A stretch of 64,000 nucleotides of DNA from Halogeometricum limi (GTDB taxonomy: Archaea > Halobacteriota > Halobacteria > Halobacteriales > Haloferacaceae), in contig NZ_FOYS01000001.1 in NCBI RefSeq assembly GCF_900115785.1, positions 124,001-188,000 on the forward strand, written 5' to 3'. The translations under genes and the position numbers were made by a program. Below the pieces are notes generated by a model that was not told where the DNA came from, made no database searches, and saw nothing but the letters and a program-made list of their open reading frames with translations. Each line of letters starts with the position of its first letter. The stretch's first letter is position 1. This document shows positions 53,401 to 54,253 of the stretch, piece by piece.

Positions 53401-54079
53401 CAAGCGCGGCGGGCAGATGGACGCCCCGCTCGTGATGTCCTCGCGCATCGACCCCTCGGAGATTGACGACGAGGCGCACAACATGGACATCGTGCGCCAG
53501 TACCCCGAGGCGTTCTACGAGGCTTCCTTAGAGATGGCCGACCCCGGCGAGGTGGAGAACCTCATCCAACTCGGCGAGGACACCCTCGGCACCGACGACG
53601 AGTACCGCGGGTTCGACCACACCCACGACACCACCGACATCGCCCTCGGCCCGGACCTCTCGGCGTACAAGACGCTCGGGTCGATGATGGACAAGATGGA
53701 CGCGCAACTCGAACTCGCGCGGAAACTCCGCGCCGTCGACGAGACTGACGTGGCCGAACGGGTCATCGAGGGGCACTTCCTCCCGGACCTCATCGGGAAC
53801 CTCCGCGCGTTCTCCAGACAGGAGACGCGCTGTCTCGACTGCGGCGAGAAGTATCGACGGATGCCGCTGACCGGCGACTGCCGGGAGTGCGGCGGCCGAG
53901 TCAACCTCACCGTCCACCAGGGGTCGGTGAACAAGTACATGGACGTCGCCATCGAGGTGGCCGAGGAGTTCGGCTGTCGCGACTACACGAAACAGCGACT
54001 CGAAGTCCTCGAAAAGAGCCTCGAATCGGTCTTCGAGAACGACAAAAACAAGGCCTCGAAGTTGGGCGACTTCATGTAG
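50492..54079 (+). CDS. polC: DNA polymerase D large subunit (DP2)
   Basis: This is the catalytic subunit of the archaeal replicative polymerase, 1195 residues, with GTG start. The catalytic Asp pair lies in [15 protein letters not shown] (Asp947 and Asp949). N-terminal conserved segments are [20 protein letters not shown] and [20 protein letters not shown]. Two zinc-binding regions follow: [16 protein letters not shown] and further CxxC pairs at about 690-750, and [20 protein letters not shown] near the C-terminus. An acidic, low-complexity insert is at about 287-325 ([20 protein letters not shown]). The frame is continuous with no intein, which several haloarchaeal DP2 genes carry. It ends at a cloverleaf-type element. 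Confidence 0.97.
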   Translation: [1195 protein letters not shown]

Positions 54080-54153
54080 GACCTTTTTGCTGACTCGGGT
54101 TTCCTCGCGTCGCCTTCGGCGACGCTGCGGGAACCCTCGTTGCAAAAAGCTCC
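54079..54153. repeat. Cloverleaf-family inverted-repeat element B
   Basis: Arms GGACCTTTTTGC (54079-54090) and GCAAAAAGCTCC (54142-54153) pair at 11 of 12 positions. A perfect inner hairpin GCGTCGCC/GGCGACGC (54107-54125) sits inside a weaker GGGTTTCC/GGGAACCC stem (54097-54136). TCCACCAAAAA follows as in element A, then hairpin CCACAGAC/GTCTGTGG (54166-54196). Short tandem C-rich units with GCTCCGCCGCCGCA repeated twice (54212-54241) come next. It begins at the last base of the polC stop codon. The shared ends, linker and position identify it as a relative of element A, although the inner hairpins differ. Confidence 0.75.
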
Positions 54154-54253
54154 ACCAAAAATCTCCCACAGACTCGGCCTTCGGCCTCGTCTGTGGTGCG
54201 ACATCCTGACTGCTCCGCCGCCGCACCGCTCCGCCGCCGCATCCGCCCTGCTT

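Follow-up and report, generated by a model that had tools for sequence, protein, structure and literature searches.

Short palindromic elements at haloarchaeal gene ends, with a copy behind polC of Halogeometricum limi: a probably mobile family and candidate portable terminator

The window (the whole 64-kb stretch of Halogeometricum limi DNA analysed here) carries, directly behind the polC stop codon, what is probably one of a family of palindromic insertion elements, short and non-coding, that haloarchaea have at gene 3' ends. We read it as a mobile palindrome, small and non-autonomous, which would act in either orientation as a terminator of transcription through its two T5 tracts, and this reading, taken jointly with membership of the family, is given a probability of roughly 0.55. 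The original prediction that the structure is a second copy of one family was correct, as both it and its counterpart at 19674 belong to a dispersed haloarchaeal family. That this dispersed family is real follows from the outcome of aligning its copies, in which the arms covary and empty sites are found.

The features of both copies are listed in Table 1. The TAG of polC occupies positions 54077-54079 and the element abuts it; both left arms begin at the G, the third base of TAG, as expected from the predicted placement on the stop codon, and the Pfam matches agree with polC as the upstream gene. The claimed pairing of the ends was confirmed, with a single C-C mismatch in the polC copy and none in the copy at 19674, and folding placed a GC-rich second hairpin 3' of both copies, again as predicted. 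The cloverleaf, by contrast, was not recovered at 54079, as the polC copy has one nested inner hairpin and the copy at 19674 has three. The linker is identical in the two copies as claimed, but the form that had been given for it, TCCACCAAAAA, includes the final bases of the right arm. C-rich tandem units do follow both copies, but are not part of the element, because a similar tract follows an element-free orthologous stop codon (G293, site L216).

Table 1. Features of the element behind polC and of its sister copy, with positions in the window.
Feature	Position	Strand	Basis or remark
polC, DNA polymerase D large subunit (DP2)	50492..54079	+	ORF list; Pfam PF03833, PF24844, PF24846
Left arm of outer stem, GGACCTTTTTGC, holds T5 tract	54079..54090	+	11/12 pairs with 54142-54153
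Inner part, 51 nt, one nested hairpin with internal loops	54091..54141	+	Fold
Right arm of outer stem, GCAAAAAGCTCC; T5 tract on minus strand	54142..54153	+	Pairing with left arm
Linker ACCAAAAA	54154..54161	+	Identical to linker of the 19674 copy
Second GC-rich hairpin (hp2)	54166..54196	+	Fold; similar hairpin 3' of most copies displayed
C-rich tandem repeat, 16-bp unit x2.1	54212..54246	+	Neighbour, judged outside the element
Sister copy, left arm, on TAG stop codon	19674..19685	+	12/12 pairs
Sister copy, inner part, three hairpins, true cloverleaf layout	19686..19774	+	Fold
Sister copy, right arm	19775..19786	+	Pairs with 19674..19685
Sister copy, linker ACCAAAAA	19787..19794	+	Identical to linker of the polC copy
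Sister copy, second GC-rich hairpin	19799..19828	+	Fold
C-rich tandem repeat after sister copy, 18-bp unit x5.3	19846..19942	+	Repeat detection

Both copies were matched by the covariance model R1, at 54079-54161 with 63.5 bits and at 19674-19794 with 38.4 bits. The 19-nt right end CAAAAAGCTCCACCAAAAA, with up to three mismatches, gave two matches in the window where 0.00 were expected, and 16 in its own genome against one for a reversed control; arm pairs of this type occur in the 64 kb only in these two copies. Folding of the whole polC-copy stretch was more stable than that of 200 out of 200 shuffles (z -5.6). The three-hairpin layout is the minority form, found at 19674, at C8:900370 in the same genome, behind polC of G295 and at one G294 site, and its inner parts occur behind different genes. 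Kinship of the cloverleaf with tRNA was dropped as an idea, since ARAGORN finds no tRNA in the window and Rfam gave nothing (0 covariance-model matches in the 64-kb window, and 0 in four loci at E up to 1). Two further observations were made on the surroundings of the copies. C-rich, G-poor tracts recur 3' of stop codons in Halogeometricum, also without the element, and the tract at 19846-19942 is built from a perfect unit, CACCGCATCCGCTACCGC. In several Halogeometricum copies (L249, L257, L244, L278, L280 and L282) a second palindromic module directly behind ACCA consists of two REP-like hairpins on GCCAGAA/TTCTGGC or similar, before an A-rich stretch.

The right-end motif AAAAANCTSSACCAAAAA was found in 154 of 292 genomes of the class, representing 58 of 77 genera, and the consensus drawn up for the class is CCACC-TTTTT-(inner hairpin with TCGGGT..ACCRCTC)-AAAAA-TCTGG-ACC-AAAAA, with a core of about 65-125 nt followed by the second hairpin. 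In the five Halogeometricum genomes, R1 copies at E up to 0.01 numbered 18 in that of the window (G000) and 20, 8, 21 and 15 in G292, G293, G294 and G295 respectively. R1 matched 15 of the 24 haloarchaea sampled versus 9 of 124 other genomes of the phylum, and the latter matches, mostly short and with a best E of 7e-6, were taken as chance and not as presence outside haloarchaea. Carriage by viruses was likewise rejected: the pattern scan gave five stretches in viral contigs, which are AT-rich (GC 0.31-0.44), have unrelated inner sequence and were judged to be chance, although one of these loci (L286) nevertheless scores E 1e-4 with R1. As the scan of named genomes was mixed with AT-rich chance matches, only listed loci of GC >=0.55 were used. 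The family was not found described in the open-licence PMC text searched.

A tally of the two outermost arm pairs covered 72 copies, after removal of L017 and of 10 loci that were considered non-haloarchaeal; they are complementary in 68, occurring as CC/GG, GG/CC, CG/CG, GC/GC and GA/TC. In an alignment of 55 copies, from which 11 of 66 candidates had been dropped by hand, these pairs are kept in 54/55 and 55/55, with 13 and 14 two-sided changes, and every whole-structure measure lies above slid controls; the left arm was picked by its fit to the right arm, which biases these figures towards pairing. None of the 66 candidates holds a second T5 run, T-runs further upstream being outside this count. 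Comparison shows that the predicted arms are kept complementary across the family, and these covarying arms of 10-12 bp are terminal inverted repeats of the kind expected of a MITE. Selection need not be the sole cause, as compensating arm changes could come from palindrome-correcting template switches. On the minus strand, the class-wide inner parts have conserved internal loops that were read by eye as tandem G-A mismatches plus a bulged base.

The position of the copies was determined for 59 in Halogeometricum, made up of about 56 of the 82 R1 matches and three three-hairpin copies. Forty-one start between -3 and +5 nt from a stop codon on the same strand, and two others lie 1 nt behind tRNA genes (L198 and L219); comparison shows stop codons to be the usual place of a copy, and the position immediately 3' of a tRNA gene a less common one. 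The gene that follows the 41 stop-codon copies is convergent in 18 cases and co-directional in 23, and in these 23 the distance from stop to start is at least 181 nt, much of it taken up by the element. The host genes at the sites that were followed look like housekeeping genes, polC by Pfam and the others by names tentatively given from their sequences. At L039, L046, L201 and L247, sequence resembling a tRNA 3' end was seen directly before the element, with the tRNA that was found ending 110-170 nt upstream; these sequences are possibly tRNA ends displaced by insertions, or tRNA introns.

Comparison among relatives shows that gene ends with and without a copy both exist. Thirty polC 3' flanks were inspected by eye. 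The element is present in one form or another in 10, namely those of the five Halogeometricum genomes, L054, L057, L065, L077 and, as a mini form, L055; three have another hairpin and 17 have none. In L054 and L057 the element is in the opposite orientation and the polC end is repeated. Sites without the element were found at other genes as well as at polC, and a family without empty sites, with likeness limited to its ends, is thus not what was observed. A related-looking hairpin family, TTTTGCTCTGCG-hairpin-CTCGGCAAAA, was seen in the polC flanks L060, L068 and L069 and in L184, and hairpins of this type lie on or near stop codons in other haloarchaeal genera.

Twelve orthologous stop codons were then chosen because the genome of the window is occupied there. 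In the four sister species these sites yielded 28 clear copies in 48 flanks, the others being empty, a remnant or altered. These copies were located by gene and not by motif, and they pair in 27-28 of 28 cases at nine of the eleven arm positions, in 25 at one, and in nine at the mismatch position. T5 is kept in 22 of them and lost in six with pairing kept (in G293, T5 is gone and the arms GAGCGTTCCG and CGAAACGCTC still pair with one mismatch), which suggests that T5 is not the sole thing under constraint.

Flanking repeats of some kind were found at 26 of 54 class-wide loci. At the 16 loci where a gene on the same strand ends within 10 nt, as at polC, no flanking duplication was found (0/16). 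An opposite-strand gene end within 80 nt was present at 25 of the 54, and at 21 of these the gene 3' end is directly repeated on the far side of the element, over a variable length of about 35-160 bp. The short target-site duplication of fixed length that would be expected of a MITE was found in neither orientation. One gene was followed in 24 genomes of a second genus, in nine of which R1 finds the element; its 3' end is duplicated in eight of these nine alleles versus none of the 15 element-free alleles. Five distinct junctions were seen among the duplications, which match over 48-129 bp at identities of 0.79-1.00. That of G227 is 79 bp long at 100% identity, and in G437 the sequence beyond the distal repeat continues as it does in the empty G187 allele. 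G227, G445 and G442 have a common junction, but the G227 hairpins differ, so the exchange of contents came later than the insertion. G106 and G115 have a different C-terminus for this gene, with the former one displaced behind the element.

Comparison thus shows that copies of one orientation have the gene 3' end directly duplicated around them, a duplication which at the followed gene occurs only with the element. From such sequence comparisons the mobility of the element is well supported, and the repeated independent insertions at one gene end (the five junctions) support the choice of insertion site that had been suggested. At L017 (G000:C8:424664-424822) the element and a neighbouring gene end were seen in tandem, broken by ten N that are either an assembly gap or a masked stretch.

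To our knowledge, long duplications of variable length fit neither a standard transposase nor IS200/IS605. The element may be moved by template switching during repair or replication, or by an enzyme acting on a folded single strand. No reverse transcriptase (RVT_1) was found in the 10 genomes searched. The element could also be a REP- or PATE-like hairpin that an IS200/IS605 (Y1, HUH) transposase moves on single-stranded DNA, and this would agree with the imperfect palindromes and their bulged bases, with the lack of target duplication in the polC-type orientation, with the Y1 transposases present in four of the five Halogeometricum genomes (six loci), and with the greater stability of the minus-strand fold over that of the plus strand, seen in 100 of 116 copies. 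However, none of the six Y1 loci has an R1 match in the flanking DNA examined, G293 has its eight R1 copies yet no Y1 match, and the long duplications of the other orientation do not fit IS605-type elements, which cause none (PMC3119063). Movement by a Y1 transposase is for these reasons considered unlikely.

The inner parts of the copies were compared at the 12 orthologous stop codons in all five species, with 20 of the 60 flanks excluded as empty, remnant or too altered. For 38 of the 40 copies the best inner match lies behind a different gene, 27 times in another species, and one inner part is shared over 51 of 51 nt by two species, at a different gene in each. Of all pairs 7% are orthologous, and their mean inner likeness of 0.63 hardly exceeds that of the others (0.59 and 0.61); between these same species, identity over the final 60 nt of the genes is 86%. 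The inner part behind polC is 98% like that of the L226 copy in G292, at a gene which we take to be phoU, and is unlike those of the polC orthologues. By comparison, the inner hairpin is shown to be exchanged between sites faster than the neighbouring genes diverge. Inner sequences do differ, as had been expected, but the keeping of structure proposed as the reason does not suffice, since contents are exchanged between gene ends.

These data also bear on whether the element is simply a structured 3' UTR, such as a terminator or stability hairpin, which evolves in place by purely vertical descent with its folding under selection and no mobility. Identical stop codons are occupied in several species, and every one of the five Halogeometricum species has a copy at polC, as if this site had been inherited vertically; pairing is also preserved via two-sided changes. 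Against this, the inner parts ignore orthology, the duplication at the followed gene goes with the element, and at L189 two different elements alternate with three gene-end copies that are near identical. Vertical descent without movement is accordingly judged rather improbable.

The mobile palindrome may serve the host as a portable transcription terminator. T5C is an efficient intergenic stop signal in Haloferax volcanii, where it stopped 95% of transcripts in vivo in a reporter (PMC7237163). Each arm would provide a T5 run on one strand, and whichever way the element lies the gene would be followed by a T tract. In the polC-type orientation this tract would come about 5 nt past the stop codon; in the other it would come after a GC hairpin, at a distance of 15-57 nt. 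The sense-strand T5 tract of polC lies four nt behind the stop codon, and in the opposite orientation T5 was found 15-57 nt behind it in the seven loci measured (the frame of L034 being doubtful). Within the window, T5 follows within 60 nt of the stop in only 8 of 61 gene ends, both copies included. The position and the published Haloferax T5C point to a terminator function, and a role in 3'-end formation, as had been suggested, is likewise plausible. A terminator function would be a reason for copies to be tolerated and retained at the ends of genes. With one T5 per strand and T5C as a stop signal, we think that the mobile palindrome persists because it is a terminator at gene ends.

A scan for consensus hairpin-plus-T terminators gave no plus-strand match; each place has one match on the minus strand at about chance level, and only that at 19674 falls inside the element. 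Transcripts of the gene that stopped at the first T5 would not extend into the remainder of the element, and conservation of the right arm must then stem from the other strand, from read-through or from use at the DNA level. Pairing is kept more strictly than T5, and this is not fully explained by a terminator.

The arms could otherwise be a tRNA-like minihelix, in which the 12-bp stem plus ACCA mimics the acceptor/T stem and 3' end of a tRNA, so that cleavage of the mRNA by RNase P or tRNase Z would be expected immediately 3' of the stop codon. The stem length fits a minimal RNase P substrate, ACC follows the right arm in 25 of the 28 orthologous copies as opposed to AAAA behind ACCA in 18, and another hairpin module lies directly behind ACCA at several loci. 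The 12-bp stem with a 3' NCCA is on the transcribed strand in the polC-type orientation but not in the other, where ACCA falls on the non-gene strand; moreover, copies also follow tRNA genes, some carry ATCA in place of ACCA, no Rfam match was found, and the wobble strand test was neutral (mismatches G-T 21, A-C 20), showing no G-U strand bias. A processing signal of this sort is held to be quite improbable. Replication slippage at a hairpin, in which a tandem duplication takes in both the gene end and the element, one element copy is lost later and no true insertion occurs, is very unlikely despite genuine tandem arrays at L017, L031, L032, L033, L129 and L189, as no element is seen behind the second of the identical gene ends of G227 and the empty alleles are entirely without one.

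A more far-reaching form of the mobile terminator is put forward only tentatively. Here the terminator would spread by itself, as a non-coding hairpin that enters gene ends again and again, duplicates 35-160 bp of the gene so that the reading frame is restored on one side, and then swaps its core between sites and species, by transposition or template switching outside the known transposon classes. If the element is indeed a mobile terminator, some of the transcription stop signals of an entire archaeal class come from a mobile element, and the C-termini of genes can be rebuilt or replaced by insertion, as at G106 and G115. The filled, empty and refilled gene ends would form a natural set for testing termination in archaea, and the puzzle is then what machinery makes long, variable gene-end duplications without a recognisable transposase or reverse transcriptase.

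Several known systems resemble the element in part. Bacterial DNA-uptake sequences are reportedly linked to terminators, and so resemble the element as a dispersed repeat with a putative terminator role; uptake sequences are short oligonucleotides and not inserted elements. The T5C terminator of Haloferax also lies as T5 shortly behind the stop codon, whereas the T5 tracts of the element are built into both arms of a covarying palindrome. Bacterial REP and BIME sequences are likewise interspersed palindromes near stop codons; about 11% of the REPs predicted in E. coli are no more than 15 nt from one, where they can stall ribosomes (PMC12306157). Unlike these, the element is archaeal, has T5 arms, ACCA and a second hairpin, and most of the copies examined are at a stop codon.

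Within the haloarchaea, the PATEs are also short palindromes without a transposase gene of their own, but they are IS200/IS605 derivatives lacking terminal inverted repeats (PMC3119063), whereas the element has such repeats and no Y1 transposase beside any copy (six loci). The SMR-A and SMR-B elements of Haloquadratum walsbyi are as short as 80 bp, with terminal inverted repeats unrelated to known transposons, and are too short for a transposase gene; PMC3119063 leaves their mobilisation unexplained and reports that they target other mobile elements with no target duplication. The element is similarly haloarchaeal and short, with terminal inverted repeats, and neither a transposase nor a reverse transcriptase could be linked to it in the genomes searched. 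It differs from the SMRs, by their description, in lying at gene ends with housekeeping-like hosts, in the exchange of its inner part, and in the long duplications in one orientation (any flanking repeat at 26/54 loci). The SMRs and PATEs of Haloquadratum are the nearest haloarchaeal counterparts found in the literature, from which the element is set apart by its duplication and its target.
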